From Pseudomonas sp. K2I15 (lineage in GTDB: Bacteria; Pseudomonadota; Gammaproteobacteria; Pseudomonadales; Pseudomonadaceae): DNA of 64,000 bases. This document shows, piece after piece, positions 3,163-39,252 of this stretch. The position numbers and the translations under genes are program-made. The number at the start of each line of letters is the position of its first letter. Position 1 is the stretch's first letter. Below the pieces are notes generated by a model, which made no database searches, had not been told where the DNA came from, and worked only from the letters and a program-made list of their open reading frames with translations. Location of the stretch: the NCBI RefSeq assembly GCF_002204795.1, contig NZ_NIXO01000001.1:372001-436000 (forward strand), given 5' to 3'.

Positions 3163-3165
3163 ATC

Positions 3166-10349: not shown

Positions 10350-10359
10350 ATGACTGGTG

Positions 10360-10440: not shown

Positions 10441-10503
10441 TGTCCCATCTTGGCGCCATCGCCACATAGCGAACCGCCGACACTTTCCAAAGGAATTTCC
10501 TAC

Positions 10504-11097
10504 ATGCTGGTCGTAACACTTGGTGGTAGCCCCAGCCAACGTTCCCGGTCCGGGGTCTTGCTGGATCACAGCCGCAACTGGTTGCAGCAACAAGGCGTGG
10601 AAGTGGTGAGTTATCAGATACGGGACTTCCCGGCCGAAGACTTGCTGCACGCACGGTTCGACAGCCCGAAGATCATCGACCTGCTGGAGCAAGTGGCGAA
10701 TGCCGATGGCCTGGTGATCGCCACGCCGGTGTACAAGGCCTCGTTTTCCGGCGCCCTGAAAACCGTCCTCGACCTGCTGCCCGAACGCGCCCTGGCCCAC
10801 AAAATCGTATTGCCGATGGCCACCGGCGGCAGCATCGCTCACATGCTGGCGGTGGACTACGCGCTGAAGCCGGTGCTGTCGGCCCTGAAAGCCCAGGAAT
10901 TGCTCCACGGGATTTTCGCCGAAGACAGCCAGATCGCTTACGGCGAAGGCAGTGCTCAGGCGCAACTGGTGCCGGTGCTGGAACAACGTTTGAGCGAGGC
11001 CCTGGAGACGTTCTACAGCGCCATGGCCCGCCGCCCGAAACCCCTTGATCCCCATGTGTTGAATGAACGTTTGTTGAGTGCTCGCTGGAGCATTTAA
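10504..11097 (+). CDS. ssuE: NADPH-dependent FMN reductase SsuE
   Basis: A 197-residue flavodoxin-fold reductase that supplies FMNH2 to the alkanesulfonate monooxygenase SsuD. The N-terminus has the flavin-phosphate loop '[12 protein letters not shown]', and '[24 protein letters not shown]' is the family core. ATG 10504 follows AAAGGAA; a 26-residue upstream extension is unlike the family. First gene of ssuEADCBF. Confidence 0.93.
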
Positions 11098-11205
11098 GCC
11101 TCACCCAGCTTTACCTGAATTCAACAAGTAGTACTCACCTTACTCAGCCGCCAACGGCCAAGCAGGTGCAGCCAACCCCCTAATCGTATATGTGGAGAGA
11201 GCGCC

Positions 11206-12199: not shown

Positions 12200-13348
12200 A
12201 TGAGCCTCAATATTTTCTGGTTCCTGCCTACCCACGGCGACGGCCATTACCTTGGCACCGCCGAAGGCGCTCGCGCCGTTGATCACGGTTACTTGCAGCA
12301 AGTGGCCCAGGCGGCAGACCGCCTTGGTTTCGGCGGGGTGCTGATCCCCACCGGTCGCTCCTGCGAAGATTCGTGGCTGGTAGCGGCGTCGCTGATCCCG
12401 GTGACCCAACGCTTGAAATTCCTTGTCGCGCTGCGCCCCGGGATCATTTCCCCGACGGTGGCTGCGCGTCAGGCGGCAACCCTGGATCGTTTGTCCGGTG
12501 GCCGGGCGTTGTTCAACCTGGTAACCGGTGGCGACCCGGAAGAATTGGCCGGCGACGGTTTGTTCCTGACCCATGAAGAGCGTTATCAGGCGTCTGTGGA
12601 ATTCACCCGCATCTGGCGCCGCGTGCTGGAAGGCGAAACCGTCGATTACGATGGCCAGCACATCAGTGTCAAAGGCGCCAAATTGCTCTACCCACCGATC
12701 CAGCAACCGCGTCCGCCGCTGTATTTCGGTGGCTCCTCCGAAGCGGCCCAGGACCTGGCAGCCGAACAAGTGGAAATGGTCCTGACCTGGGGCGAGCCGC
12801 CGGCCGCAGTGGCGGAAAAGATCGCACAGGTTCGCGCCAAGGCCGCCAAGCTCGGGCGTACCTTGCGCTTCGGCATTCGCCTGCATGTGATCGTGCGTGA
12901 AACCAACGCCGAAGCCTGGCAGGCCGCCGACAAACTGATCTCCCACGTGGACGATGAAACCATCGCCCGCGCCCAGGCCTCGTTGTCGCGTTTTGATTCC
13001 GTAGGCCAGCAACGCATGGCCGCCTTGCACGGCGGCAGCCGCGACAACCTGGAAGTCAGCCCCAACCTGTGGGCAGGTGTAGGCCTGGTACGTGGCGGCG
13101 CCGGCACCGCCTTGGTAGGCGATGGCCCAACCGTGGCGGCGCGAGTGAAGGAATACGCCGACCTTGGCATCGATACCTTTATCTTCTCCGGTTATCCACA
13201 CCTGGAAGAGTCGTATCGCGTGGCTGAGTTGCTGTTCCCGCACCTGGATATCGAACGTCCCGAGCTGCCCAAAGGCGCCGGTTACGTCAGCCCGTTCGGC
13301 GAAATGGTCGCCAACGACATTCTTCCCAAAGCTGCGTCCCAGAGCTGA
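12200..13348 (+). CDS. ssuD: FMNH2-dependent alkanesulfonate monooxygenase SsuD
   Basis: A 382-residue bacterial luciferase-like TIM-barrel enzyme that splits alkanesulfonates into an aldehyde and sulfite using FMNH2 from SsuE and O2. The opening '[20 protein letters not shown]' and the central '[21 protein letters not shown]' are characteristic of SsuD. ATG 12200 follows CAGGAGA. Length matches E. coli SsuD (381). It lies 25 bases after ssuA. Confidence 0.95.
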
Positions 13349-13357
13349 GGCGTCGCC

Positions 13358-14146
13358 ATGAACCTTGAAAAATTAAGTCATCGATTGGCGCCTTGGGCGC
13401 TGCCGATTCTGTTGCTGGCGGTATGGCAGTTGTCTGTGTCGGCCGGTTGGTTGTCGACGCGCATTCTGCCGGCGCCCAGCGCTGTGATCGAGGCGGGTGT
13501 CAGCCTGGTCCGCAGCGGCGAAATCTGGACCCATCTGGCCATTAGTGGCTGGCGTGCGGGCCTGGGCTTTGTGATCGGCGGCAGCATCGGCCTGGCCCTG
13601 GGCTTTATCACCGGCCTGTCGACCTGGGGTGAACGCCTGCTGGACAGCTCGGTGCAGATGATCCGCAACGTGCCGCACCTGGCGCTGATCCCACTGGTGA
13701 TCCTGTGGTTCGGCATTGATGAGACGGCGAAGATATTCCTGGTCGCCCTCGGCACGCTGTTCCCGATCTACCTCAATACTTACCACGGCATCCGCAACGT
13801 CGACCCGGCGCTGGTGGAGATGGCCCGCAGTTATGGCCTGTCCGGTTTCAGCCTGTTTCGCCAGGTGATCTTGCCGGGCGCCTTGCCTTCGATTCTTGTC
13901 GGCGTGCGCTTTGCGTTGGGCTTTATGTGGCTGACGCTGATCGTTGCAGAAACCATCTCTGCCAGTTCCGGCATTGGCTACCTGGCGATGAACGCCCGGG
14001 AGTTCCTGCAAACCGACGTGGTGGTATTGGCGATCGTGCTGTACGCCGTGCTCGGCAAGCTGGCAGACCTGGCGGCGCGTGGCCTGGAACGCGTCTGGCT
14101 GCGCTGGCACCCGGCTTATCAAGTGAATAAAGGAGGTGCGGCATGA
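13358..14146 (+). CDS. ssuC: Aliphatic sulfonate ABC transporter permease SsuC
   Basis: A 262-residue inner-membrane permease with about six hydrophobic segments. The EAA-type loop that docks the ATPase is visible as '[29 protein letters not shown]', broken here as [14 protein letters not shown] then [10 protein letters not shown]. It starts 9 bases after ssuD and its stop overlaps the ssuB start by 4 bases (ATGA), suggesting translational coupling. Confidence 0.93.
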
Positions 14147-14949
14147 CCGCTCAACAACCTCCACGCCTGCTGCAGGGCATTCCCCTGGCAGTGCGCAAGT
14201 TGCGCAAGTCTTTTGGCTCGCGGGAAGTGCTGAAGGAAATCGACCTGCATATTCCGGCCGGTCAGTTTGTTGCGGTCGTGGGCCGTAGTGGCTGCGGCAA
14301 AAGCACCTTGCTGCGTCTGCTGGCCGGGCTGGACAAAGCCAGTGGCGGCGAGTTGCTCGCCGGTTCAGCGCCGCTGAGTGATGCGATTGAAGACACACGG
14401 TTGATGTTCCAGGAAGCGCGCCTGCTGCCGTGGAAAAAGATCATCGACAACGTGGGCCTGGGTCTCAAGGGCAACTGGCGCCCCAAGGCATTGGAAGCGT
14501 TGGAAGCGGTCGGCCTGGCCGAGCGCGCCAATGAGTGGCCTGCGGCGTTGTCCGGTGGCCAGAAGCAACGCGTGGCCCTGGCCCGCGCCCTGATCCACCA
14601 ACCACGCCTGTTGCTACTGGACGAGCCGCTGGGGGCCCTGGATGCCCTGACCCGGATCGAGATGCAGCAACTGATCGAGAACCTCTGGCGCAAACACGGC
14701 TTTACCGTGTTGCTGGTGACCCACGACGTCAGCGAAGCCGTGGCCATTGCCGACCGGGTGATCCTGATCGAAGAAGGCGAAATCGGCCTCGACCTGCACG
14801 TGGAACTCCCACGCCCGCGGGTGCGTGGCTCCCACCGCCTGGCGGCGCTGGAAACCGAAGTGCTTAACCGTGTGTTGTCGCTGCCCGGCACGCCGCCGGA
14901 ACCCGAACCTGTTTCACCGCTGCCTACGCAATTGCGTTGGGCTCAATAA
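14143..14949 (+). CDS. ssuB: Aliphatic sulfonate ABC transporter ATPase SsuB
   Basis: A 268-residue ABC ATPase: Walker A '[18 protein letters not shown]', Q loop '[12 protein letters not shown]', signature '[17 protein letters not shown]', Walker B '[12 protein letters not shown]', switch 'LVTHDVSEA'. It energises sulfonate uptake with SsuA and SsuC. It overlaps ssuC by 4 bases. The C-terminal 40 residues are Pro-rich and look non-catalytic. Confidence 0.94.
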
Positions 14950-14978
14950 CTCACTTGTCTTACACAGGAAGAACGACC

Positions 14979-15194
14979 ATGACTATTAAAGCCATCAACG
15001 TGCGTAACCAGTTCAAAGGCACCATCAAGGAAATCGTCGAAGGCGACGTACTGTCGGAAATCGACGTGCAGACCGCGTCCGGCATCGTGACCTCGGTGAT
15101 TACCACTCGCTCGGTCAAAGAGCTGGAGCTGGTGATTGGCAGTGAAGTGATTGCCTTCGTTAAATCCACCGAGGTGTCGATCGCCAAGTTGTGA
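14979..15194 (+). CDS. ssuF: Molbindin-like TOBE protein SsuF
   Basis: A 71-residue single TOBE (molbindin-like) domain: 'IKAINVRNQFKGTIKEIVEG...SEIDVQTASGIVTSVITTRSV', the pattern of small oxyanion-binding proteins. ssuF is the last gene of the P. putida ssu operon, where it is needed for growth on some sulfonates, though its biochemical role is unclear. ATG 14979 follows ACAGGAA. A terminator follows directly. Confidence 0.88.
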   Translation: MTIKAINVRNQFKGTIKEIVEGDVLSEIDVQTASGIVTSVITTRSVKELELVIGSEVIAFVKSTEVSIAKL

Positions 15195-15208
15195 TCGATG
15201 TTTCCCAC

Positions 15209-15241
15209 AAAACCCCGAAGGTGAAAGCCTGTCGGGGTTTT
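15209..15241 (+). terminator. Rho-independent terminator of the ssu operon
   Basis: AAAACCCCGA pairs with TCGGGGTTTT around a 13-base loop, 14 bases after the ssuF stop; the right arm ends in T. Confidence 0.85.
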
Positions 15242-15260
15242 CGTCGTTCTTGAGATCGCT

Positions 15261-15342
15261 TTCGCGAGCAAGCCTGCTCCCACATTCGACCGAGTTCTAC
15301 CGTTGGAATGCAGTCGAATGTGGGAGCGGGCTTGCTCGCGAA
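15261..15342. repeat. REPIN, opposite arm order
   Basis: It begins with TTCGCGAGCAAGCCTGCTCC and ends with TGTGGGAGCGGGCTTGCT plus CGCGAA, so the head-in arms enclose a short loop containing a GAATGCAGTCGAAT-type stretch. One base of the left arm differs (CCTGC for CCCGC). It lies between the convergent ssu operon and tetR-type gene. Confidence 0.88.
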
Positions 15343-15366
15343 GAGGCCGACACAGGCAACAAAAAA

Positions 15367-16005
15367 TTAGAGCGAAGCCACCCGCTTGGGTAAAAACGCC
15401 GGCAAATAAAGCCCCACATACGCATCAAACACCCGCATGCCTTCCTCGGCCATACGCGGGGTGATCTGTCCGTACTGATGCACCGAGCGCGCATAGACGC
15501 GGTCGCTCAGCTCCAGGGCCAGGGCAAACACGTCGACATCGGCAGGCAGGCTCGGCACTTCGAAGTGCCGGTTGAACACTTCATACATCAGGTTTCCCAG
15601 CTCCAGGTCATGCTGGCGGTCGGCCTGTGTCACTTCGGTCAACCCGTGCTGGGCGAGAATCAATTGCCGGGCGGCGGCGTCGTTGCTGTAGATAGTGAGC
15701 ATGCGCTGCTCCACCACGCCCGACAGGTCGCGCCAGTGCTTGAGTGACTCGTGGTCGATGGGTGCTTGAATGGCCGCGCGAAAGGCTGCATGCACATCGG
15801 CGGTCAATGCTTCGAGCAAAGCCGGCACGCTGGCGAAGAAGTGGTACACCGATGACGGCGGAATCTGCGCCCGTTCGGCCACGCTGTAGATCGACAGGCT
15901 GGCCACGCCTTCGGCGGCCAGCAAGGTGCGGGCGGCATCGAGGATCGCGTCGATCCGGGCCCGGCTGCGGGCGCGGGGTTTGCGAGGGGCGGCGGGGCGA
16001 TTCAT
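15367..16005 (-). CDS. TetR-family transcriptional regulator
   Basis: A 212-residue regulator. The N-terminal helix-turn-helix is clear: 'RIDAILDAARTLLAAEGVASLSIYSVAERAQIPPSSVYHFF' (split: ARTLLAAEGVASLSIYS and VAERAQIPPSSVYHFF). The C-terminal ligand domain is family-variable. The first 15 residues are Arg/Pro-rich. The Shine-Dalgarno TAGGAGA precedes the ATG. It stands alone between two REPINs, so no target is suggested by position; being convergent with ssu, it is not an obvious ssu regulator. Confidence 0.9.
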   Translation of the reverse strand: MNRPAAPRKPRARSRARIDAILDAARTLLAAEGVASLSIYSVAERAQIPPSSVYHFFASVPALLEALTADVHAAFRAAIQAPIDHESLKHWRDLSGVVEQRMLTIYSNDAAARQLILAQHGLTEVTQADRQHDLELGNLMYEVFNRHFEVPSLPADVDVFALALELSDRVYARSVHQYGQITPRMAEEGMRVFDAYVGLYLPAFLPKRVASL

Positions 16006-28186: not shown

Positions 28187-29152
28187 ATGGGCAAAACCGT
28201 CGCCATCCTGATCTTCCCCGGCGTCCAGTCACTGGACGTGACCGGCCCCCTGGATGTGTTCTGCGAGGCCAACCGTTTTCTCCCGCCCGAGGAGCATTAC
28301 CAACTGGAAGTGATTGGCCTGGGCCACGGCAACATGGCCTGTTCCAACGGCTTGTCGTTGCAGGCGCATCGGCATTTCAGCGAAGCCCTCGAACCTTACG
28401 ATTTGCTGTTGATGGCCGGCGGGCCGCAGTTGCCGTTCGAGGATTTTGGCCCGGTGTTCACTCAATGGCTGCGTGACGCCAGCGCGCGAGCCAAACGCTT
28501 CGGCTCCATCTGCAACGGCGCCTTCATACTCGCCCGCGCGGGGTTACTGGATGGGCGCACCGTCACCACCCACTGGGGCGACGCCGCCGACTTGGCCAGC
28601 TTGTGCCCATCGGCCCAGGTGCAAGCCGACCGCCTCTACGTGCAGGACGGCAACCTCTACACCTCCGCCGGGGTGACGGCGGGTATCGACCTGTCACTGT
28701 ACCTGCTGGCGCAGGACCATGGGCCGGAAGTGGCGCTCAGTGTGGCCAAGCGGCTGGTTGTATTTACCCAGCGGTCGGGCGGGCAATCGCAGTTCAGTCC
28801 GTTCCTTACACCCCACGCCGAAGCCACCTCGGCGGTGGCGCTGGTGCAGCTCTACGTATTGGCGAACCTGACGGGGGACCTGACCATCGCCGATCTGGCC
28901 AAGGCCGCCAACATGAGCGCGCGCAACTTCTCCCGGGTATTCGCCCGGGAAGCGCAAATCACCCCGGCGGAGTTCGTCGAGCGGGCACGGGTGGATGCGG
29001 CGCGGGTGATGCTGGAAAGCACCCACGCACCGCTCAAGACCGTGGCTTACCAGTGTGGCTTTCGCGATGCGCAGCACATGCGCAGCGTGTTCAACCGCCG
29101 GCTGGGGGTGACGCCACAACAATTCAGGCTGAATTTCGCGGTGCCGGTTTAA
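28187..29152 (+). CDS. GlxA-family (DJ-1/PfpI plus AraC) transcriptional regulator
   Basis: A 321-residue regulator. The N-terminal DJ-1/PfpI-like domain (about 1-185; 'VAILIFPGVQSLDVTGPLDVF', 'SICNGAFILARAGLLDGR') is probably a ligand sensor. The C-terminal AraC DNA-binding domain (about 215-321) carries two helix-turn-helix units, 'LTIADLAKAANMSARNFSRVF' (shown split as LTIADLAKAANMS and ARNFSRVF) and 'KTVAYQCGFRDAQHMRSVFN'. ATG 28187 is preferred to a GTG four codons earlier that lies within the ribosome site. It faces away from the HD hydrolase. Confidence 0.9.
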   Translation: MGKTVAILIFPGVQSLDVTGPLDVFCEANRFLPPEEHYQLEVIGLGHGNMACSNGLSLQAHRHFSEALEPYDLLLMAGGPQLPFEDFGPVFTQWLRDASARAKRFGSICNGAFILARAGLLDGRTVTTHWGDAADLASLCPSAQVQADRLYVQDGNLYTSAGVTAGIDLSLYLLAQDHGPEVALSVAKRLVVFTQRSGGQSQFSPFLTPHAEATSAVALVQLYVLANLTGDLTIADLAKAANMSARNFSRVFAREAQITPAEFVERARVDAARVMLESTHAPLKTVAYQCGFRDAQHMRSVFNRRLGVTPQQFRLNFAVPV

Positions 29153-29170
29153 GGTCAACATAGAGCAAAA

Positions 29171-29293
29171 TGTGGGAGCGGGCTTGCTGTGGTGAGGGGG
29201 CTTGTCCCCCGTCGGGTTCACCACAGATTGATGGGGCTGCTTCGCAGCCCAACGCGGGGCAAGCCCGCTCACCACAGCAAGCTCGCTCCCGCA
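29171..29293. repeat. Composite palindrome: one REP type nested in another
   Basis: The outer arms TGTGGGAGCGGGCTTGCT (29171-29188) and AGCAAGCTCGCTCCCGCA (29276-29293) belong to the common family. Between them, 29189-29275 is a different palindrome with ends GTGGTGAGGGGGCTTGTCCC and its imperfect reverse complement, related to the element at 60897-61032. The centre also holds GGGCTGCTTCGCAGCCC, a small hairpin. Confidence 0.88.
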
Positions 29294-29314
29294 TTGGGTC
29301 TTCTGTTTCTTCAG

Positions 29315-31678
29315 TTATTGCGGTGTCCGCGCGGGCAACAGCTTGAGCGTGCTGCGGGTATTCGCCGTCACTTCCTCCTCATTGAAATGCGCCTGCTCAT
29401 ACCCGCCCTCGATATACGTTTCCGCCTGGTCGGAATAGTGCTTGTCGAATGGCACACCACTCTGTCCAACCGGGTTGATGGTCAGCGCATGCGCGGCGTC
29501 AGCGAAGTCGATCAGGCGCCGTGTCGACGGTCCGTACGTCACCGGCCACGGCGCAGGGCCGATCGGCGCGGATTGGTTATTGGGTACTTCATGGCTGCCG
29601 GGAGCGGCGAACGGGCCGACGTTGACGATCTTGTCCAACGGCTTCTGCGAGCCCAGCGGATGGCCGTGGGTCAGGGTGTGGGCCTTGCCCCATTGCCATT
29701 GCGCCGGGTCGTCACCGAAGGTCGCGTTGAGGTGTTGCAGGCTGTTGTCCCAGGCGAGCTTGACGGTGTCGGCGCGGTGGCCGTTCCACCATGGTGAATC
29801 CGGCGAAGCGGTGAGCCGCGGCAAGGCCGCATCCACCACGCGGGTGTTGAGCAATGTCTTGAACATCGCGTCGCCCAGCTTTGGGTGAAACGCCGCGTCG
29901 GTGAGGTTGAACAGGAACTGGTTGAACAGCGTGGCAGTGGTGGAGTCCAGCGGGTAATCGCCTTTCCACGTGGCCAATTGCTCCACCAGCTTCAACTGCG
30001 CCGGGTCCTTGACCACTTCACGCAGCACCGGCAGCAGCGGCGCCAGCAGCCGTGGGCCGTAGGCGGTGGTGGTGCCGAGCTGCAAGGCCTGGCTGTTGTC
30101 CACGTCCCATTTCACGCTGTTGTCGCTCAATTGCGCGTTCAACTGCTGGCCACGGTCCGCCAGGTTGTAATAACCGGGGATCGGCATGCCGGTGGGCGAC
30201 GCCGGTTGGGCGTTGGCGGACACCACATAACCGCGGGCCGGGTTTTCTTCCTGGGGGTTGGCGCTGAACGGGTAGAAGCCGAGTTTGTCGGCCTGGGCGG
30301 TGCTGCCGTCGAGGATAAAGCCCGGGTTGACTCCTGCCGGGCGGATCGGCAATTGCGCCGCCGCCCACCAGCCGATATCACCCTTGGCACTGGCCCATAC
30401 GATGTTCAAGCCCGGCGCCTGGACCTTGGCCGCTGCGGCGCGGGCCTTGGCCAGGGTGTCGGCACGGTTGAGCTGGTAGAAGCCTTCGAGGATTGGGTTT
30501 TCGGTATCCAGGAAGGCCCACCACATGGCAATCGGCGTCTTGCCCGCATTCTCACCCAGTACATCGTTGATGATCGGACCGTGGGGCGACCTGCGCAGGG
30601 TCAGGGTCACCGGGTCCTGGCCTTTGACCGCGATCTGCTGCTCGCTGCTGGTCATGTCCACCCACTTATCGTGGTACCAGACCTGGTTGGGGTTGTCCGG
30701 GTTGACCTTCTCGGCGATCAGGTCGAGGTCATCGTTCTGGAACATGGTCAGGCTCCAGCCGAAATCCTTGTTGTGGCCCAGGAACGCCACCGGCACCAGC
30801 GCGTTGTGATAACCGTAAAGCTCGAAGCCCGGCGCCGACAGCTGCGCCTCGTACCACACCGACGGCACCGAGAAGCGGATATGCGGGTCGCCCGCCAGCA
30901 GCGGCTTGCCGCTCTTGGTGCGGCTGCCGCTGATGGCCCAGGCGTTGCTGCCTTCGAACTGCGGCAGGCCGTTGTCGGCCATCGCCTGTTCACTCAATTG
31001 GGCGATGGCGCCGAGGTCTTTCCAGTCACCGGCCGCCAGGTTCAGCGCGCCCTTGGGCTGCCAGTCGAGGTCGAAGACTTTCAGGTAGTCGTTGCCCAAC
31101 TGATCGCGTACGTACGTCAGCAAGGGTTCGGTGCGGAAGGCGGCGGCAAAGCTGTAGGCCAGGTAGCCGGCGACGCTGATAGTGTCTTCGGCGGTAAACG
31201 GGCGCTTGGGGATGCCCAGTATGTCGAACTCCATGGGTCTGGCGTGGCTGTCCTGATACTGGTTGACGCCGTCAAGATAGGCTTGCAGGGCCTTCCAGGA
31301 CGCAGACTCGTGGTCCATGTGCTCCACGTAGCTGAGTGCGCGTTCGCGAATGCGCAGGCTGCGGAACAGTTTGTCGGTCTCCAGCAGCTTGGGGCCCAGC
31401 ACTTCGGCCAGCTCGCCACGGGACAGGCGCCGCATGATCTCCATCTGGAACAGCCGGTCCTGGGCGTGCACATAGCCGAGGGCGCGGTACAGGTCGGTCT
31501 CGTTCTCGGCGCGGATATGCGGCACGCCACGGTCGTCGTAACGCACGGTGACCGAACCTTGCAGGTGGGCCAACTCCACCGTGCCCTGGCGGGTCGGCTG
31601 CTTGCTGTACACGTACCAGCCGGCGCCAACCATAAGGGCTACGAGCAGGATGGCCAGCGCGGTCAGGATGCGTTTCAT
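29315..31678 (-). CDS. Penicillin acylase-family amidase, probable acyl-homoserine lactone acylase
   Basis: A 787-residue Ntn-hydrolase precursor. An N-terminal hydrophobic segment (about 4-22) exports or anchors it. The precursor should cleave itself before S244 in 'FEGSNAWAISGSRTKSGKPLL' (split: FEGSNAWAIS, GSRTKSGKPLL), making S244 the nucleophile of the beta chain. 'LGYVHAQDRLFQME' is a family signature in the alpha chain. In P. aeruginosa the AHL acylase HacB (PA0305) lies right after the spu genes, so this is probably its orthologue, although two genes intervene here. It could instead act on beta-lactams or other amides. Confidence 0.85.
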   Translation of the reverse strand: MKRILTALAILLVALMVGAGWYVYSKQPTRQGTVELAHLQGSVTVRYDDRGVPHIRAENETDLYRALGYVHAQDRLFQMEIMRRLSRGELAEVLGPKLLETDKLFRSLRIRERALSYVEHMDHESASWKALQAYLDGVNQYQDSHARPMEFDILGIPKRPFTAEDTISVAGYLAYSFAAAFRTEPLLTYVRDQLGNDYLKVFDLDWQPKGALNLAAGDWKDLGAIAQLSEQAMADNGLPQFEGSNAWAISGSRTKSGKPLLAGDPHIRFSVPSVWYEAQLSAPGFELYGYHNALVPVAFLGHNKDFGWSLTMFQNDDLDLIAEKVNPDNPNQVWYHDKWVDMTSSEQQIAVKGQDPVTLTLRRSPHGPIINDVLGENAGKTPIAMWWAFLDTENPILEGFYQLNRADTLAKARAAAAKVQAPGLNIVWASAKGDIGWWAAAQLPIRPAGVNPGFILDGSTAQADKLGFYPFSANPQEENPARGYVVSANAQPASPTGMPIPGYYNLADRGQQLNAQLSDNSVKWDVDNSQALQLGTTTAYGPRLLAPLLPVLREVVKDPAQLKLVEQLATWKGDYPLDSTTATLFNQFLFNLTDAAFHPKLGDAMFKTLLNTRVVDAALPRLTASPDSPWWNGHRADTVKLAWDNSLQHLNATFGDDPAQWQWGKAHTLTHGHPLGSQKPLDKIVNVGPFAAPGSHEVPNNQSAPIGPAPWPVTYGPSTRRLIDFADAAHALTINPVGQSGVPFDKHYSDQAETYIEGGYEQAHFNEEEVTANTRSTLKLLPARTPQ

Positions 31679-31904
31679 GGGTTGTCCCTTATTAGTGATC
31701 CGGGCAGTTTAGTGGGTTTGGCGAGCGGGGAGGAAGAAGCTGTTGGCTTCGAGTTCCCTGAACCTCACCTGCATGAAGTCGGGGTTCTGAAGTTCGGCGT
31801 GGGTGGGCGGGTTATTATGTTTACTCTGTTACATGAAACCAGCGGCGCCACGACTCAACGGGCCATCCGGGCGCGCCTTTGCTATCACTTTCGGAATGCA
31901 ATTT

Positions 31905-32990
31905 ATGACAGATCCCAGCCGTGCACAGGTGCCTTATGCCTGCTGCATGGAAACGCCATCGCTGATCAGCAGCTTTTTGCGATACCCGCCGGTGGGCTTC
32001 AACGCCCAGCTGTCAGCACAGGGACTGCCGTACTTTTTCACCCGGTTCGACCTGCAAACCACCGCCGACGATGAGCTGCGCGCCCGCCTGCGCAGTTGGC
32101 CGGGGTACCGCTGGTGGCAGTCATGGCTGCATATCGACACCTGCTTTGTCGGCACCACGGTCAGTGAATATTCGCCGTTCCCGCTGAACGTACCGCCACA
32201 GGATATGGCGCAATGGCTGCAAGAAGAATGTGCACCGCAACGCAAACTCACCATCGTCAAAGACGTACCGCTGGATTCTCCGCTGCTCAGCGTCGAGGAC
32301 AATCGCTACGCACAAGGCTTGATCGAGGCCTGCACCCAGCGCGGGTTCATCAGTGTCGAAGGCCAGGCGCTGGCCTATGTACCCATCGACTTCACCTCGA
32401 TTGACGAGTATCTGTCGCGGTTGTCCCATAGCCGGCGCCGTAATATTCGCCGCAAGTTGCGCAGCCGCGACGAACTGCGCATTGAGATCCTGGACACCGG
32501 CGATACGCGGTTCAGCGATGAGCAATGGCAGCAGGAACTGTACCGGCTGTACAAGGCGGTGTACGCGCAGAGCGAAATCCACTTCGATTTGCTCACGCCC
32601 GAATTCTTCATCCAGTTGCTCACCGATGCCAGCAGTGGCGGGCATGTGTTCTGCTATTGGGACGAGGATGAACTGGTCGGTTATAACCTGTGCTATGTGC
32701 AAGACGGCAAGCTGCTCGACAAGTACATCGGCCTTAACTACCCGCTGGCGCTGGAGCACAACCTGTACTTCGTCAGCTGGTTTGTGAACCTGGAGTACGC
32801 CCTGGAAAAGGGCCTGCAGTTTTACGTGGCGGGCTGGACCGATCCGCAGGTCAAGTCCAGCCTCGGCGCCAGGTTCACCTTCACCCGCCATCTGGTGTGG
32901 GTGCGTAACCCGCTGCTGCGCAAGGTGTTGAGCCGTTTCCGACACCATTTTGAAAGCGACATGCAGTGGCAGCAGGAGCAAACCGCATGA
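31905..32990 (+). CDS. FemAB/CelD-like GNAT-fold acyltransferase
   Basis: A 361-residue protein whose central part, 'YLSRLSHSRRRNIRRKLRSRDEL' (shown split: YLSRLSHSRRRNIRRK, LRSRDEL), is the basic helix typical of FemAB-like/CelD-type acyl-CoA or aminoacyl transferases. It continues with the GNAT-like strands 'HVFCYWDEDELVGYNLCYVQ' and 'YIGLNYPLALEHNLYFVSWF'. ATG 31905 is preferred: CGGA lies 9 bases upstream. Its stop overlaps the start of the arginase-fold gene by 4 bases, so the two act together. Acyl donor and acceptor are unknown; a role in modifying an amine or peptide is inferred. Confidence 0.7.
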   Translation: MTDPSRAQVPYACCMETPSLISSFLRYPPVGFNAQLSAQGLPYFFTRFDLQTTADDELRARLRSWPGYRWWQSWLHIDTCFVGTTVSEYSPFPLNVPPQDMAQWLQEECAPQRKLTIVKDVPLDSPLLSVEDNRYAQGLIEACTQRGFISVEGQALAYVPIDFTSIDEYLSRLSHSRRRNIRRKLRSRDELRIEILDTGDTRFSDEQWQQELYRLYKAVYAQSEIHFDLLTPEFFIQLLTDASSGGHVFCYWDEDELVGYNLCYVQDGKLLDKYIGLNYPLALEHNLYFVSWFVNLEYALEKGLQFYVAGWTDPQVKSSLGARFTFTRHLVWVRNPLLRKVLSRFRHHFESDMQWQQEQTA

Positions 32991-33868
32991 GCCAGGCCCG
33001 ACCCGCATTGATCCTCGATTTTGATGGCGCCGTGAATAACATTCCCGGCGCCATTACCCTGCCACTGCAAGCCTGGCAGGAGAAGATTCGTTTCGGCTGC
33101 CGCTGGGCGCAGTTCAAGGAGCTGGAGAGCGCCCTGCAAGCACAGATGCCCAGTGACTACGGCTGCGTGTTTACCGGCAGCGGTGACTATCATCACCTCA
33201 GCCAGCTGTTGCTGAACCGCCTGCCCACCCAGCAAAAAATCCAGCTGATCATTTGCGACAACCACCCCGACAACATGCGCTATCCGTTTGGTATCCATTG
33301 TGGTTCGTGGGTTTACTGGGCCAGCCGCCTGCCGCAGGTCGAGCATGTTCACGTGCTAGGCATTGGTTCGCCGGACATTTCCCTCAAGCACGCCTGGGAG
33401 AATCACTGGTCACCGCTGGTGAAACGCAAGCTGACCTACTGGAACACCAACGTTGATACCCGCTGGTTGAACTGGATCGGCGCAGGCCGCAGCAATCGCG
33501 CCTTCACCAACGCGGACGAGTTGATGAGCGCGTTCCTGGCGCAACTCGACCGCTCGCTGCCGGTGTATCTCTCCATCGATAAAGACGTGCTGAGCCCGGA
33601 AGTGGTGAATACCAACTGGGACCAGGGCGAGTTTCTGGAGAAGCACTTGAATGCGCTGATCGATGCCTGCCATGGCAACATTATTGGTGCGGACATTACC
33701 GGCGACGTTTCGGCCTATCACTACCAGAGCAAGTTCAAGCGGTGGCTGAGTGCCTCTGATGGCCAGGAAGAGTTGCCGGAAAACCAGGTGGTCATCTGGC
33801 AACAGCAGCAGAATGAGTTGAATGCGCGCTTGTTGACCCGTATCGATCAGAGCTGGGTCAGCGTTTAA
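32987..33868 (+). CDS. Arginase/deacetylase-fold amidinohydrolase-like protein
   Basis: A 293-residue protein with the three metal-site motifs of the arginase family in altered form: GDYHH (67-70) for GGDH, DNHPD (91-95) for DAHxD, and SIDKDVLSP (196-204) for SxDxDxxDP, the last with Ser in place of the final Asp. The opening 'ALILDFDGAVNNIPGAI' is not that of a standard arginase or agmatinase. Metal binding therefore looks possible, but the substrate is probably not arginine. It is coupled by a 4-base overlap to the acyltransferase and convergent with the aminotransferase gene, whose 3' end it overlaps by 11 bases. Confidence 0.75.
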   Translation: MSQARPALILDFDGAVNNIPGAITLPLQAWQEKIRFGCRWAQFKELESALQAQMPSDYGCVFTGSGDYHHLSQLLLNRLPTQQKIQLIICDNHPDNMRYPFGIHCGSWVYWASRLPQVEHVHVLGIGSPDISLKHAWENHWSPLVKRKLTYWNTNVDTRWLNWIGAGRSNRAFTNADELMSAFLAQLDRSLPVYLSIDKDVLSPEVVNTNWDQGEFLEKHLNALIDACHGNIIGADITGDVSAYHYQSKFKRWLSASDGQEELPENQVVIWQQQQNELNARLLTRIDQSWVSV

Positions 33869-35084
33869 GAATCCGCCGTAGATGATCCAGTACTTGCTCA
33901 AACAGTTCGTCCGTCAGCCAGTGGCTGTTGCTGATCGACAGCGTCTGGGCGGCGAAGCTTTGTGCGCAGGGGATCTCGGCGCCTGGCTGTAACAGCGGGG
34001 CGAGTGCCGGGTAGCCCGGCAATACGTGGATGAACAGGCGGGTGACGCCCAGGCCGGCCGTCCACAGTTGCGCCATCGCGGTATCGCGGGTTTGTGCGCT
34101 GGGCATCACCACCATCAGGAAGGGCCAGGTTCCTTGCTGGCCCGGGCTGTCGGCCAATACCGAAACGCCGGGCAAGCTGTTGAGCTGCGCCACGCGGCGC
34201 AATGCCCGCTGGCGCCCTTGCTGCAAATACTCGGGCAAGCGTACCAGCGCTGCGGCGCCGACCTTCTGGCGATAGCCGCCCAGGCGGTGCAACGGAATAT
34301 CGTCGACGGAAAAGTCATCGCCCACCGCCGCCACTTCATCGCCCCGCGCCAGCGCCGCACGCAATGGTTTGCCATACACGTACTTCAGGCCGCGAGGCTG
34401 ATAGGCTGCGGCATAGCCCCACAGCTCGGCGCTGCGTTGCAGTTCCCAGCGCAGGCTGAAGGGCAAATCCTGCCGGCATTGCTGGTGCAGCGCCTGATGC
34501 AGCGACGCGTCCCGGCTGAACAACACGCCGCCTTCTGCCGTGGTCAGGCCTTTGCCCAGCGCCATGCTGAAAAAACCGATGTCGCCTTTAAGCCCGACAC
34601 TTTTGCCCTCATCCAGCGCGCCCATGGCTTGGGCGGCGTCTTCGATGACCGCCACGCCGAGCGGCTCGGCAATGCGTTTGGCGGCATCCACATCCGCCAC
34701 GCGCCCAGCCAGGTGGGTGACGACGATCGCCAAGGTGTTTTGGTTGCACAGCTGCGCCAGCTGTTGCTCGTCCAGGTCGATGCTGCCGGGCTGTAAATCG
34801 CACGGCACCACGCGCAAAGGCGGGCAGTGATGCGCAGCCAGGGCCACCAGCGGGCAGGTATACGCCGGCACGATGAGCTCGGTGCGCCCAGGCATGCGCT
34901 GCTGCAACACGCGCAGCGCCATGATCAGTGCGGCGGTGCCAGAGCAGGGCAGGGCCGGCAGGGGAATATCGAGTTGCTGGGCCAGCGAACGGGCCAGGTC
35001 GCCTGAAACGCTGAATAAATCCTGCCAGCGTAGGGGAAGCCCCGCCGTTGGCGGGATCTCCCGTTGGCTGGCAACGCGGGTCAT
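33858..35084 (-). CDS. DegT/DnrJ/EryC1/StrS-family PLP aminotransferase
   Basis: A 408-residue sugar-aminotransferase-type enzyme. Landmarks are 'LPCSGTAALIMALRVL', 'LIVPAYTCPLVALAAHHCPP', the Asp of 'VIEDAAQAMGA', and the PLP lysine in 'FFSMALGKGLTTAEGGVLF'. Such enzymes aminate keto-sugars or related ketones. ATG 35084 overlaps the stop of the upstream small transporter gene by 4 bases. No sugar nucleotide genes are nearby, so the substrate is open. Confidence 0.85.
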   Translation of the reverse strand: MTRVASQREIPPTAGLPLRWQDLFSVSGDLARSLAQQLDIPLPALPCSGTAALIMALRVLQQRMPGRTELIVPAYTCPLVALAAHHCPPLRVVPCDLQPGSIDLDEQQLAQLCNQNTLAIVVTHLAGRVADVDAAKRIAEPLGVAVIEDAAQAMGALDEGKSVGLKGDIGFFSMALGKGLTTAEGGVLFSRDASLHQALHQQCRQDLPFSLRWELQRSAELWGYAAAYQPRGLKYVYGKPLRAALARGDEVAAVGDDFSVDDIPLHRLGGYRQKVGAAALVRLPEYLQQGRQRALRRVAQLNSLPGVSVLADSPGQQGTWPFLMVVMPSAQTRDTAMAQLWTAGLGVTRLFIHVLPGYPALAPLLQPGAEIPCAQSFAAQTLSISNSHWLTDELFEQVLDHLRRILKR

Positions 35085-35494
35085 GACGCCAGCGTCTGCG
35101 ATGGCTCGGCCTCGACGGTCTTGCTCTCTTTGTCTTCGCTGCGCGCCAGGCACAGGATGCCCGCGATAATCAGCGCGCCACCGACGACTTTGGGCAGGGT
35201 CAAGGTGTCGTTGAACAGCCAGACAGAGATCAGCGTCACGCTGATCAGCTCCAGGTGTGAGGCCGCAAACGCCGGGCCGACTGGCGCGTACTTGAGCAGG
35301 GTCATCCAGGTAAAGAACGCGCCGATGTAGCCCACAAATGCGCCGTAGATCCATGGCGCACCGAACACGCGTATCAGCCAGGCGGCGTCCATCGTCAGCG
35401 GCTCGGCATGAATCGAGGCGAATTTAAAACTGACCTGCGCCAACGTATCGAAAATGATCAGCGACAGAAAACCCAGGATATAAAACCGTTTCAT
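35081..35494 (-). CDS. Small EamA/DMT-type membrane protein, second of a pair
   Basis: A 137-residue protein with four predicted helices ('FYILGFLSLIIFDTLAQVSF', 'WIYGAFVGYIGAFFTWMTLL', 'AASHLELISVTLISVWLF', 'VVGGALIIAGILCLA') and a charged tail. Size and the 'LAQVSFKFA' and 'APVGPAFAASHLE' motifs resemble ArnE/ArnF-type lipid-linked aminoarabinose flippase subunits and other half-size DMT proteins. The Glu in helix 1 that EmrE-type drug pumps need is absent. It touches its paralogue upstream (stop and start share one base), which suggests a heterodimer. Confidence 0.75.
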   Translation of the reverse strand: MKRFYILGFLSLIIFDTLAQVSFKFASIHAEPLTMDAAWLIRVFGAPWIYGAFVGYIGAFFTWMTLLKYAPVGPAFAASHLELISVTLISVWLFNDTLTLPKVVGGALIIAGILCLARSEDKESKTVEAEPSQTLAS

Positions 35495-35850
35495 TACTCA
35501 AACCCCACGACGGTCACGCCACAGGCGATCAGCATGATGCCGATCAACCGCCATTTGGTCAGGCTTTCCTTGAACAGGAAACGCCCGGCAATCATGATCA
35601 CGACAATGTTGATGGAGCCCAGCATCACCCCGACCGACAACGGCACCAGGGTCAGGAAGGCCAGCCACAGCACGAACTCGAAGACGTAGCAGATGATGCC
35701 CAGCCAGATCCACGGACGCTTGAGCATATGGCGCCAGTGGGCCATGCCGTCATGCTCGGCGCTGGCTGAGGCAGCGGCTTTGAACGCCAACTGGCCGGAC
35801 GTATCAACGATAACGTTGAGCATCCAGAGGATGATGGTTAATTGGCTCAT
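35494..35850 (-). CDS. Small EamA/DMT-type membrane protein, first of a pair
   Basis: A 118-residue protein with four helices. 'NVIVDTSGQLAFKAAA' in helix 1 and 'VLWLAFLTLVPLSVGVMLG' with 'ESLTKWRLIGIMLIACGVTVV' are close in style to ArnE/ArnF. ATG 35850 has CGGGAA upstream. It is the first of the tight set 118-aa gene, 137-aa gene, aminotransferase, all overlapping. The pair probably forms a heterodimeric transporter or flippase for the product of the aminotransferase. Confidence 0.75.
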   Translation of the reverse strand: MSQLTIILWMLNVIVDTSGQLAFKAAASASAEHDGMAHWRHMLKRPWIWLGIICYVFEFVLWLAFLTLVPLSVGVMLGSINIVVIMIAGRFLFKESLTKWRLIGIMLIACGVTVVGFE

Positions 35851-35993
35851 GTGTTCCCGTGTCGTCTGCTTATACGCCTGGCACCGACGACTCAAACGCC
35901 GTCCGCCCCGCTAGCTGCTTACGATACAGGAGCATGCCGATACAGTTGTTCGAGTTTGCCGAACGAACAGCGTCTGTTCAGCTTGCGCCCGGG

Positions 35994-36578
35994 TCAGGGT
36001 GGAGGGGCTGCGGCGTTCCACTCGCAATAACAGCCTACCGCCAGGGTGTGGGTCGCATTGACCTCGCGCCCGGCTCCGAGGGCTTGCAGGATGGGCTCGA
36101 TAAAGCTGTTGCTGGAGTTACAGGTCAGCCCTTCGCTGTAGGGCCCGAAATAGGCCAGCTTGCCGCTGCGGTCCCAGATGCCCACGGCGGGGCTGGCCGG
36201 CAGGTGTTGGGCGCCGGGCACGGCCTTGAGGGCCTTCATTGCGCCGAGAGTAGCGGGCAACTGGCCGTGGCTGCCGGCTTTCTGCAGGGAATAGAACTCC
36301 ACGCCTTGGGGAGCGTACTGCTCGATCAGCTCGCCGAGGTGCTGCTGGTTACCGACGTTGCACGGGCAGGCCGGGTCCCAGAAGTGCACCAGCCGGATGG
36401 GGCCCGGGCCGGCAAGCTCGGCGGGCAGGCTCAGGGCGTCACCGGAAAACACCGCCGTATGCTCGCTGAACGCCCGCAGGTAACGACCCTGGAACCAGTC
36501 ATACGCCGCCCATAACACGCCGGCGCAAATGATCACGATCAGGCTGGCGAAGAGGGTGGTGCGGTAGGGCTGTCGCAT
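35994..36578 (-). CDS. Membrane-anchored thioredoxin-like protein with CPC motif
   Basis: A 194-residue protein: an N-terminal transmembrane anchor (about 8-28) then a thioredoxin-like fold, 'IRLVHFWDPACPCNVGNQQHL'-type (split: IRLVHFWDPACPC, NVGNQQHL). The usual CxxC is shortened to CPC. Later cysteines occur in 'GLTCNSSN' and the C-terminal 'VGCYCEWN', another closely spaced pair. It probably faces the periplasm. ATG 36578 with GAGGA upstream is preferred to a TTG three codons earlier. It lies 143 bases upstream of the small transporter pair in the same direction, so co-transcription is possible. Confidence 0.75.
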   Translation of the reverse strand: MRQPYRTTLFASLIVIICAGVLWAAYDWFQGRYLRAFSEHTAVFSGDALSLPAELAGPGPIRLVHFWDPACPCNVGNQQHLGELIEQYAPQGVEFYSLQKAGSHGQLPATLGAMKALKAVPGAQHLPASPAVGIWDRSGKLAYFGPYSEGLTCNSSNSFIEPILQALGAGREVNATHTLAVGCYCEWNAAAPPP

Positions 36579-36689
36579 TTGGATCAATCCTCGGAGGACG
36601 CATAGCTTGCCATGCTTGCCCTGACAGATGAATATCGCGGCTCGATATTCATCTGTTCAATGCGTTGAAGCCACAGTCTGGAAGTTCTT

Positions 36690-37631
36690 ATGCCCGTTAC
36701 GTTTGACCCTGATCATCTACGCGAAAGCTTGCGGCCCCTGGTGGACGCGCAGCCGCTTTCAGCCGAGGCCCGGGTCTACCAGCGCTTCTACGGCCTGGAC
36801 CTGCCTGCCCGCAAGGTGCCGGCGGTGAGCCGCCTGGGGCGCTTTGCGGTGGACGGGTTCGACGTGGTTTGCCAGGTGTGGTGGCCGCCGCAACCTGTGG
36901 CGACGATGTTCCTGTTTCATGGCTTCTACGACCATATGGGCCTGTACCGCAACGCCGTGGATTGGGCGCTGGACCAGGGCTTTGTAGTGATCGCCTGCGA
37001 CTTGCCGGGCCATGGCCTGTCCAGCGGAGAGCGGGCCAGCATCGATGATTTTGCGGTGTACCAGGACGTGGTGCAGGCGCTGTTTGAACAGGCCAAGGCG
37101 CTGCAATTGCCGCAGCCGTGGCACTTGTTCGGGCAAAGCACCGGCGGCGCGATTGTGGTGGATCACCTGCTTAGCCACGGCGCTGACAGCCCGGCGCAGG
37201 GCAAGACCTTTTTGCTGTCACCGTTGGTGCGGCCGCGCGCGTGGGGCTGGTCGCAGCTCAGTTATTACCTGCTCCGGCCGTTCGTCAAAGGCATCGCCCG
37301 GCGTTTCAGCGATAACACCAACGACCCGCAGTTCAAGCCGTTCCTGGAGGCTGACCCGTTGCAGCCACGGCAACTGCCGACCGCTTGGGTGGGTGCGTTG
37401 GCGCGCTGGATCAAACGCATTGAAGCGGCGCCACGCAGTACGCGCAGGCCGTTGATCGTGCAGGGCGAGGAGGACATGACGGTGGACTGGCAGCACAACC
37501 TGAAGGTGCTGCGCAGCAAGTTCGACCAGCCGGAGGTCTTGATGCTGCCGCGCGGCAGGCATCATCTGGCGAATGAGATTCCGGAGATTCGGCAGCAATA
37601 CTTCAGGTTTCTCAGCGACCACCTGAAATAA
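36690..37631 (+). CDS. Alpha/beta hydrolase, lysophospholipase/monoacylglycerol lipase-like
   Basis: A 313-residue serine hydrolase. The nucleophile is S150 in 'LFGQSTGGAIV'; the oxyanion region is 'MFLFHGFYDHMGLY'; 'IACDLPGHGLSSGERASIDDF' is characteristic of the PldB-like (hydrolase_4) group. The acid is in 'GEEDMTVD' and the His in 'GRHHLANE'. No signal peptide, so cytoplasmic or inner-face. It is divergent from the CPC protein gene. Confidence 0.85.
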   Translation: MPVTFDPDHLRESLRPLVDAQPLSAEARVYQRFYGLDLPARKVPAVSRLGRFAVDGFDVVCQVWWPPQPVATMFLFHGFYDHMGLYRNAVDWALDQGFVVIACDLPGHGLSSGERASIDDFAVYQDVVQALFEQAKALQLPQPWHLFGQSTGGAIVVDHLLSHGADSPAQGKTFLLSPLVRPRAWGWSQLSYYLLRPFVKGIARRFSDNTNDPQFKPFLEADPLQPRQLPTAWVGALARWIKRIEAAPRSTRRPLIVQGEEDMTVDWQHNLKVLRSKFDQPEVLMLPRGRHHLANEIPEIRQQYFRFLSDHLK

Positions 37632-37642
37632 CACAATCGAAA

Positions 37643-37732
37643 TGCGGGAGCGGGCTTGCTCGCGAAAGCGGTGGATCAGTCAACATATCCAGTGACTGAC
37701 ACACCGTCTTCGCGAGCAAGCCCGCTCCCACA
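37643..37732. repeat. REPIN after the alpha/beta hydrolase
   Basis: Arms on the common core (left arm TGCGGGAGCGGGCTTGCT, one change). The loop GGATCAGTCAACATATCCAG is nearly the same as in the unit at 27153-27242. It lies between convergent genes. Confidence 0.92.
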
Positions 37733-37735
37733 GGG

Positions 37736-38488
37736 TTACTGCGCCAAGTTTGAAGTGCTTTGGCCAACGGCCAAACCGGCGCGAATCGCCGCCAGGGCCG
37801 CCTTGTAATACGCCTTGCCGTCTGGCGACTCCGCGAACGTTGCGAACTCTTCCAGCTCCGGGTCGGACAAATCCCGGTAGACGTACAGCAGCGTGTTGTT
37901 CAGATCATTGCCAATCTGCTGCATCAACCGTTCACGCTGGCCGTTCAACATGCCTTGCGCCTGACCTCCGCCCAACAGGCCGGGGATCATCTGGCTCAAG
38001 CTGTCGGCGGCCACACCGGCGATCGCCAGGCTGACTTCAGCCCCGGCTTCCCGCGCAGGCAGCGCCTGGGCCAAATGCCCGATGATCAAGCTACGGGTGG
38101 CGTCGGCTTCGATATGCGGCAAGCCCTGGGCATTCTTCGCCAGTTGATCACGACGGGTGGCCAGCAACTCGGCGGCGACAATCTTGCGGCCAAGGGGCGA
38201 CTGGAAGAAGGCCAATGCCGGCTTCGGGTCCGCCAAATTCTTGCGCAGCTGCGCTTCGGCGCGCTGGTCTACCGACTGGGGCGCAAAGCGTTTATTGCTG
38301 TTGTCCACCAGCGCCTGATACACCGCGGGCGGCAAGCTGTTGCGGTAGCGCTGCTGGGCGGCACTGAGGGCGTCATTAAAATGCGCGCGCTGGTCTGCCC
38401 AGCCGGCGACCTTGTACAACTGGTCATGGCTGTCTGCCCAGGCGGGCAAAACGCAGAACATCAGCAAGGAAAAAAACAAACGACGCAT
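37736..38488 (-). CDS. DUF2059-type exported protein
   Basis: A 250-residue protein with a signal peptide (about 1-18, ending 'CVLPAWA'). The body is alpha-helical, and its C-terminal part ('LLYVYRDLSDPELEEFATFA', 'SPDGKAYYKAALAAI') matches the DUF2059 pattern. Function unknown; probably periplasmic. A second, weaker copy of the same helical motif ('SPLGRKIVAAELLATR') occurs near residue 97, suggesting internal duplication. The Shine-Dalgarno CAGGAG is clear. Confidence 0.75.
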   Translation of the reverse strand: MRRLFFSLLMFCVLPAWADSHDQLYKVAGWADQRAHFNDALSAAQQRYRNSLPPAVYQALVDNSNKRFAPQSVDQRAEAQLRKNLADPKPALAFFQSPLGRKIVAAELLATRRDQLAKNAQGLPHIEADATRSLIIGHLAQALPAREAGAEVSLAIAGVAADSLSQMIPGLLGGGQAQGMLNGQRERLMQQIGNDLNNTLLYVYRDLSDPELEEFATFAESPDGKAYYKAALAAIRAGLAVGQSTSNLAQ

Positions 38489-38610
38489 ATGGACTCCTGT
38501 CAGTCGGCCACTATTGTCCGTGTCGGGCGTAGGATTTGTCGAGAAATCCTATCGGTCACCTGACTAAAGTGTATTCAGACGCTCGGCGGCGCTGTCGGAT
38601 TCACAGGCGT

Positions 38611-39252
38611 ATGGATACTATGCGCGCCATGCCCATACCCTCCGATCACCCGCTGCTGCTACGCATTGTCGATGATCTGGCCGCACAAGGCTGGTCGCAG
38701 CAGAATATCTTCCTGCCCGAGGCTCTGACCCTCGAACTTGCGGCTGAGTGCCATAAACGCGCCGCCGAAGGCGAATTGGCACCGGCAGCCGTCGGGCGCG
38801 GGCCGTCCCAGGAGATTCGCGAGGGTATTCGGGGTGACCATATCCAGTGGCTGGAGCCGGGTGAAGTGGTCGCCTGCGACAACTATCTGGAATTGATGGA
38901 CAGCCTGCGGGTGGCGATGAACCGGGGCCTGTTCCTGGGCCTGGAAGACTTCGAAAGCCACTTCGCGCTGTACCCGCCGGGGGCGTTTTACCTCAAGCAT
39001 GTGGACCGTTTTCGCGATGACGACCGGCGCATGGTGTCGGCGGTGATCTACTTGAACAACGCCTGGCTGCCGGAGCACGGTGGCCAGTTGCGCATGTACC
39101 TCAAGGGCGACGTCGAATACGATGTGGTGCCCACCGGTGGTTGCCTGGTGGTGTTTCTGTCGGGGGAAATTCCCCATGAAGTCATGCCCGCCACCCGCGA
39201 ACGCCTGTCCCTCACCGGCTGGTTTCGCCGGCGGGGTAACGAGCCGTTTTGA
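38611..39252 (+). CDS. 2-oxoglutarate/Fe(II)-dependent oxygenase (SM-20/prolyl hydroxylase type)
   Basis: About 213 residues. The double-stranded beta-helix metal site is visible: HxD in 'FYLKHVDRFRDDDRRMVSAV' and the distal His in 'LSGEIPHEVMPATRERLSLT', whose Arg should bind 2-oxoglutarate. It probably hydroxylates a protein or small molecule. The start is uncertain: ATGs at 38611, 38620 and 38629 are in frame. 38611 has CAGG just upstream. The stop overlaps the next start by one base (TGATG). Confidence 0.82.
   Translation: MDTMRAMPIPSDHPLLLRIVDDLAAQGWSQQNIFLPEALTLELAAECHKRAAEGELAPAAVGRGPSQEIREGIRGDHIQWLEPGEVVACDNYLELMDSLRVAMNRGLFLGLEDFESHFALYPPGAFYLKHVDRFRDDDRRMVSAVIYLNNAWLPEHGGQLRMYLKGDVEYDVVPTGGCLVVFLSGEIPHEVMPATRERLSLTGWFRRRGNEPF

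Follow-up and report, generated by a model that had tools for sequence, protein, structure and literature searches.

A candidate two-locus pathway for synthesis and export of a small amine-rich metabolite in Pseudomonas sp. K2I15

Introduction

In clavulanate synthesis, proclavaminate amidinohydrolase hydrolyses a guanidino group with the release of urea. The class of aminoacyl-tRNA-dependent transferases that act in natural-product synthesis is described in a review (PMC12945691), and lipid-type transporters of the small multidrug resistance (SMR) family often have Asn at their centre and may lack proton coupling (PMC9574504). Here, we describe a locus of Pseudomonas sp. K2I15 that combines a FemAB-like transferase, an arginase-fold hydrolase, a DegT aminotransferase, and a pair of half-size EamA transporters. 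It occupies positions 31905-36578 of a stretch of 64,000 nucleotides (contig NZ_NIXO01000001.1, positions 372,001-436,000), referred to below as the window. With a probability of about 0.48, we propose that a small amine-rich (cationic) metabolite is made and exported by a pathway encoded at two loci, one in the window and the second on contig C12 of the same genome. The proposal builds on gene content, co-occurrence, folds, and conserved residues, from which we infer each chemical step.

Gene content and co-occurrence

The plus strand of the locus starts with the gene of a FemAB-like/GNAT transferase (31905..32990; Pfam PF04339 and PF13480), predicted from its fold to be of the aminoacyl-tRNA-dependent type. 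It overlaps by 4 bases the gene of an arginase-fold, ureohydrolase-branch hydrolase (32987..33868; PF00491, 24.2 bits at a cut-off of 22), which has the predicted fold and the presumed metal ligands of this family and is called the ureohydrolase below. The latter gene converges with that of a DegT-family pyridoxal phosphate (PLP) aminotransferase on the minus strand, probably an accessory enzyme (33858..35084; PF01041, 142.5 bits), with an 11-base 3' overlap at 33858-33868. On the same strand, the DegT gene overlaps by 4 bases the gene of EamA/SMR-like transporter subunit B (35081..35494), which in turn shares 1 base with that of subunit A (35494..35850); both subunits match Pfam EamA. The sixth gene, also on the minus strand, encodes a CPC thioredoxin-like protein of the DUF6436 family (35994..36578). 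Our recount agreed with the gene positions and overlaps given in a preliminary description of the locus, as did Pfam (FemAB_like/Acetyltransf_6, Arginase, DegT, EamA twice, and DUF6436) with its family names for all six proteins. By sequence comparison, five of the six genes are one conserved unit and DUF6436 lies outside it. None of 10 proteins matched the PADLOC anti-phage models at E <= 1e-4.

A scan of a genome collection yielded 33 loci. All 15 Pseudomonas loci among them, including those of P. salomonii, P. costantinii, P. antarctica, and P. poae, contain the transferase, the ureohydrolase, and both EamA genes, and 12 of them contain DegT. Four loci of the Enterobacterales type (Sodalis, Pantoea coffeiphila, a metagenome-assembled genome (MAG), and "Martelella alba" BGMRC 2031, the last assigned to this group by identity) have all five genes in the same convergent order as the window. 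The co-occurrence of the two convergent units, which the preliminary description had proposed as its own test, was thus found in unrelated genera, and because of it we regard the two units as a system.

The Enterobacterales-type clusters extend into genes for an alpha/beta hydrolase, an MtnX-like HAD phosphatase, and a MipA/OmpV outer-membrane protein (MipA in 3/4), and a class III aminotransferase is encoded upstream of the transferase. The same aminotransferase is present in 14/14 non-Pseudomonas loci (L046-L059). Most Acinetobacter loci have both halves a few kb apart inside one cluster, and a single contiguous cluster was observed in Enterobacterales, Acinetobacter, Xanthomonas, and others. 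Outside Pseudomonas with the window-type cassette, the two halves usually form one larger cluster in other Gammaproteobacteria. The cluster of Xanthomonas sacchari additionally contains a ketosynthase (KS), an acyl carrier protein (ACP), and an ATP-binding cassette (ABC)/HlyD/TolC exporter.

These relationships are best described in terms of two cluster types, namely, type I with DegT, and type II, in which no DegT was found and which is native to many Pseudomonas. The type II set consists of the ureohydrolase, the EamA pair, MipA, the phosphatase, the aminotransferase, the hydrolase, and the transferase, followed, where the fetched stretch extends far enough, by a histidine kinase and an NtrC-type regulator. 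Similar DegT-free sets were found in Rhizobium (L067), Asticcacaulis (L060), and two genomes from outside the class of the window (L108, L109). The window genes are of type I: their identity to the genes of Sodalis is 65-76% (four genes) and 69% (DegT), and to type II homologues from Pseudomonas 25-31%. Contig C12 carries a locus of type II (232-8549), whose aminotransferase is 95-97% identical to those of complete type II loci. This locus encodes a sigma-54 regulator, a histidine kinase, a second FemAB-like transferase, an alpha/beta hydrolase, a class III aminotransferase, an MtnX-like HAD phosphatase, and a MipA-type outer-membrane protein, i.e., the whole type II set except the ureohydrolase and the EamA pair, and it is colinear with the complete type II loci to the end of MipA, where colinearity stops. 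In sequence terms, the K2I15 genome is a hybrid, with a type I cassette in the window and a type II locus on C12. The five genes had initially been taken for a complete set; the aminotransferase, phosphatase, and hydrolase lie elsewhere in the same genome, and a complete five-gene pathway was rejected because these partner enzymes are on C12.

Joint action of the two loci is supported most strongly by the complementary pattern of ureohydrolase and EamA presence. We scanned 199 Pseudomonas genomes and found the ureohydrolase in 45, the aminotransferase in 59, a transferase homologue in 51, and DegT of the window-type clade in 7. Every genome with the ureohydrolase also has the aminotransferase and the transferase (45/45), and the aminotransferase occurs in 14 of the 154 genomes without the ureohydrolase (Fisher p ~1e-32 for the association of the two, not corrected for relatedness). 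Where the ureohydrolase is Pseudomonas-native, the aminotransferase gene is situated within 5.2 kb in 34/36 genomes, and the other two are drafts with the genes on different contigs. Near the window-type cassette it was found in none of nine genomes, and in three that have both on one contig the distance exceeds 1 Mb. Each of these nine genomes has a single ureohydrolase match, and their aminotransferase loci have no EamA match in at least 5.6 kb upstream of the phosphatase gene (8/8 informative loci; the ninth, L074, ends at a contig end 1.1 kb past the phosphatase and is uninformative). On the other hand, the EamA pair is kept in all three loci fetched from the 14 genomes having the aminotransferase without the ureohydrolase.

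The spread is patchy, since an order-level search matched only the genome studied here (1/145). In a profile search, the ureohydrolase was present in 16/398 genomes of the phylum and 8/212 genera. DegT was found in eight of ten clusters fetched from this search, accompanied by the class III aminotransferase in 7/8 (exception L106). On a Bartonella plasmid (L064), the aminotransferase, transferase, and ureohydrolase genes occur without an EamA or DegT match in the stretch fetched; genes for an MBOAT acyltransferase and AlgX-like proteins (12882-15404) adjoin the ureohydrolase gene, in place of the DegT and EamA genes of other type I clusters. A search of a phage collection gave two remote matches only. 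Lachnospiraceae MAGs (L061-L063) and two unannotated human-gut contigs labelled "Bacteriophage sp." (H21, H22) encode distant relatives of the arginase-fold protein (25-31% identity).

Insertion site of the cassette

The cassette is a movable unit, inserted at approximately 31679..35993, because the genes that flank it, encoding an acylase and DUF6436, are situated close together in cassette-free Pseudomonas. We compared the best DUF6436 locus, with a 1.5 kb flank, from each of 23 other Pseudomonas genomes, none of which has a window-type cassette. The acylase gene is within 1.5 kb of DUF6436 in 19/23. The gap between the matched parts of the two genes is at most 260 bases in 13/19, including about 45 bases in G004 and G017, and about 600-1400 bases, too short for the cassette, in the remaining 6/19. 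The corresponding gap in the window is 4.3 kb long and contains five genes. The G+C content of the transferase and ureohydrolase genes is 57-60%, vs 61-65% leftward of them. No tRNA genes were found in the whole window, no Rfam matches at 29000-39000, and no convincing flanking direct repeats at the cassette edges.

DUF6436 is present in 24/25 Pseudomonas genomes tested, and we therefore consider the CPC thioredoxin a bystander. Of the five- or six-gene locus initially described, the five genes stand; DUF6436 as a member of the system was rejected, being present in nearly all Pseudomonas genomes tested and close to the acylase gene in most of those compared that have no window-type cassette.

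The acylase (29315-31678), on the left flank, belongs to the penicillin-amidase family and misses the NCBIfam PvdQ cut-off by far (67.1/950 bits). On the other side, the alpha/beta hydrolase at 36690-37631 scores above the NCBIfam cut-off for phospholipase BipL (538.5 vs 450 bits), and acylase-DUF6436-BipL-DUF2059 is a conserved block in Pseudomonas. P. kitaguniensis (L043, 11840-13764) has no DegT and carries two extra frames of 90 and 551 aa in the interval from the EamA pair to DUF6436; for this reason the insertion site looks variable.

Transferase and ureohydrolase

The predicted structure of the transferase (predicted local distance difference test, pLDDT, 89.0) has the FemX-like fold of two GNAT domains expected of the FemABX-type class. 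Its fold matches include Sbb17 (Z 18.4, 256 aligned residues, 3.2 A), Sba18 (18.3), FemX (17.1), and MprF (15.6-17.0), vs at most 14.6 for tandem GNATs acting on acyl-CoA, with one protein of unknown function between (15.2). The protein has 361 aa and matches Pfam FemAB_like/Acetyltransf_6 only, i.e., the fused flippase and synthase domains of MprF are not present. K317, which may or may not correspond to the catalytic Lys305 of FemX, is invariant in 16/16 sequences. From this model, the enzyme is probably aminoacyl-tRNA-dependent.

The arginase-fold protein (pLDDT 87.7) has, in its predicted model, the alpha/beta arginase fold of the ureohydrolase superfamily. Agmatinase 1wog (Z 19.5, root-mean-square deviation 3.0 A, 231 aligned residues), Thermus arginase (18.8), and proclavaminate amidinohydrolase (18.6) are tied within one unit, and the best structural matches also include guanidinopropionase and guanidine and metformin hydrolases. 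Relatives of the deacetylase branch are not among the fold matches listed, an absence that proves nothing. H69/H70, D91, H93, D95, D198, and D200 are invariant in 12/12 ureohydrolases of both types (two rows with truncated starts); going by the motifs of the superfamily (His; DxHxD; DxD), we take these residues to be the binuclear metal ligands. No NCBIfam model, and thus no named substrate subfamily, matched the protein at E <= 1, and a sequence search of the PDB gave a chance match only.

An overlap of exactly 4 bases between the transferase and ureohydrolase genes, like that of the window, was found in 25 of the 30 type I loci that were scored. Their pairwise identities correlate with r = 0.97 over 16 loci, the highest value of 28 gene pairs, although these pairs lack independence and all values are inflated by the deep divide of types I and II. 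Given the overlap and the correlated identities, the two proteins probably share an intermediate or act on consecutive ones.

Transporter pair, DegT, and partner enzymes

Position 16 of the EamA proteins is D or E in 42/42 sequences of subunit A and 37/39 of subunit B. By its spacing to a conserved Lys, we take this position to be the equivalent of EmrE Glu14, the SMR centre. The best NCBIfam matches of the pair are ArnE and ArnF, both below cut-off (36.2/92 and 32.9/99 bits). Neither the equivalog-level score nor the non-acidic centre residue (often Asn) expected of the ArnE/ArnF lipid type characterises the pair, and export of a cation is favoured over lipid flipping because the acidic centre is kept.

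DegT belongs to its fold family, K178, presumably the PLP lysine, being one of the positions with a conservation of 95% or more across 23 sequences. It scores far below every named sugar-aminotransferase cut-off listed in NCBIfam, the best being PseC (93.6/423.5 bits). Thus, the scores of DegT and of the EamA pair speak against the initial lipid A or sugar reading. No glycosyltransferase or nucleotide-sugar enzyme was seen among the annotated cluster genes, a survey that did not include every neighbouring frame, and lipid A or sugar decoration was rejected as unsupported.

The class III aminotransferase is very conserved, with 239/459 positions shared by 95% or more of 35 sequences (excluding two partial rows). 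The phosphatase has kept the DxDGT and GDGxSD motifs, and the alpha/beta hydrolase the Ser-Asp-His triad in 31/33 sequences, the other two having Cys in place of Ser (a short row was excluded).

Regulation

We scored upstream regions for sigma-54 sites (-24/-12), a score of at least 14 of 15.5 being called strong (background: 0.8% of random 200-base pieces). A strong site precedes the phosphatase gene in 14/15 type II loci scored (17 fetched; exception L081). Another precedes the ureohydrolase gene in 5/5 type II loci or, where this gene is gone, the first EamA gene in 3/3. These loci are related and hence not independent, but the two promoters are unlike in sequence. Together with the adjacent NtrC-type regulator, the sites suggest that the two type II operons form one predicted sigma-54 regulon.

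Discussion

On the most likely reading, the cassette and the C12 locus constitute a pathway by which a small nitrogen-rich compound is built and exported. The class III aminotransferase and the HAD phosphatase would make an amino, probably amino-alcohol, core, to whose amine the FemAB-like enzyme would join an amino acid from aminoacyl-tRNA. The arginase-fold enzyme would hydrolyse a guanidino group, releasing urea, DegT would add an optional amination, and the alpha/beta hydrolase would trim or unmask an intermediate. The EamA pair could then export the cation in exchange for protons, and the outer envelope step might be taken by MipA or, in some genera, by the ABC/FtsX-HlyD-TolC set. One specific version, "write then trim", is rather unlikely: arginine from arginyl-tRNA would be joined to an amine acceptor and urea then removed, so that ornithine, which the genetic code does not specify, would be installed by a tRNA-dependent route.

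Several observations weigh against the proposed two-locus pathway. By sequence, the transferase matches Sbb17 at E = 0.046, below two unrelated chance matches, and the two-GNAT fold occurs in acyl-CoA enzymes too. KS and ACP in 4/46 loci point to an acyl chain instead, at least there. Among the window-type genomes, G139 has a broken aminotransferase frame (L080, ~10285-11660), reflecting either a real loss or a draft-assembly error; G157 is missing the second transferase; and DegT is missing from 2/9, just as it was not found in type II loci. The class III aminotransferase of Roseomonas (L066) is a different, HemL-like one, and neither aminotransferase nor phosphatase was found in the 19 kb of L106. 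Finally, no sigma-54 site was found in the window cassette (best score 11, at background level), so that shared regulation of the cassette and the C12 locus is only a possibility.

Of the alternatives, envelope modification in the manner of MprF and Arn is the main rival, though a doubtful one. Here, the FemAB-like enzyme would aminoacylate a membrane lipid (as MprF), the EamA pair would flip it (as ArnE/ArnF), the hydrolase would remove the modification, and MipA and the two-component system would sense membrane attack. Synthase domains of MprF are indeed among the best transferase folds, ArnE/ArnF are the best NCBIfam matches of the pair, a cyclopropane fatty acid (CFA) synthase gene adjoins the Rhizobium cluster, and MipA genes are situated at many of the 46 loci examined (12 by the Sodalis query, 19 by the Pseudomonas query), MipA being a proposed polymyxin co-sensor in P. 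aeruginosa (PMC10936184). However, the ArnE/ArnF cut-offs are missed by far, the acidic centre of both subunits differs from the Asn frequent in lipid SMRs (PMC9574504), and aminoacylation of an existing lipid needs no two aminotransferases, phosphatase, and ureohydrolase. The preliminary description had suggested a product that is made and exported, which is likely, and perhaps an envelope decoration, which it may be.

An N-acyl amine comes next, because KS and ACP recur in four clusters; it is unlikely. The FemAB-like enzyme would take an acyl group from acyl-ACP or acyl-CoA, and a secreted lipo-amine would result. KS and ACP genes occur together in or near the cluster at L060, L065, L101, and L106, and at L065 and L101 they lie inside it, between the aminotransferase and transferase genes; a DevC-like/FtsX permease is encoded at 5/46 loci and an HlyD-type protein at 6/46; and tandem GNAT acyltransferases do match the transferase fold. 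Still, no such KS/ACP was found in 42/46 loci (some stretches are short), and aminoacyl-tRNA-type enzymes score about 1-4 Z units higher than these acyltransferases. Very improbable is a self-standing breakdown or detoxification of an external guanidino compound, degraded by the ureohydrolase with the leftover exported by the EamA pair. While agmatinase, guanidinopropionase, and guanidine and metformin hydrolases among the fold matches and the small paired transporters fit such a role, the ureohydrolase strictly co-occurs with the transferase and the class III aminotransferase, clusters with the phosphatase, and is coupled to the transferase by overlap and co-evolution.

If it exists as proposed, the two-locus pathway would be an unnamed route of biosynthesis and export, spread over Alpha- and Gammaproteobacteria, that has a clear gene set in two architectures and for which a sigma-54 regulon is predicted. 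Its completion by a cassette at another locus means that cluster-based genome mining would miss one half. It also offers, outside Streptomyces, a testable case in which probable aminoacyl-tRNA-dependent chemistry is combined with a ureohydrolase.

All the component families are known. For their combination, in which a ureohydrolase is coupled to a transferase of the aminoacyl-tRNA type and the genes are split over two loci in K2I15, no named pathway or paper was found in the open-access PubMed Central (PMC) literature, in line with the preliminary description. The closest relatives each share a part of it. Sbb17 (BD-12 Orf11), PacB, DhpH, VlmA, and FemX resemble the window transferase in its predicted two-GNAT fold and are its best structural matches; sequence similarity to Sbb17 is near noise (E 0.046), and the gene neighbours presumably differ from those in the Sbb17, PacB, DhpH, and VlmA pathways. 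MprF likewise joins a transferase fold to a translocator, whereas here these are separate genes, the translocator is of the SMR type, and extra biosynthetic enzymes are present. Agmatinase and proclavaminate amidinohydrolase share with the window ureohydrolase the fold and the residues of the binuclear metal site, and the TNWDQG that follows its DxD motif stands where arginases have a different motif. ArnE/ArnF and MdtI/MdtJ, like the EamA pair, consist of two half-size subunits encoded by overlapping genes; in contrast to them, the EamA pair scores under every NCBIfam cut-off listed and, unlike lipid SMRs, has an acidic centre.

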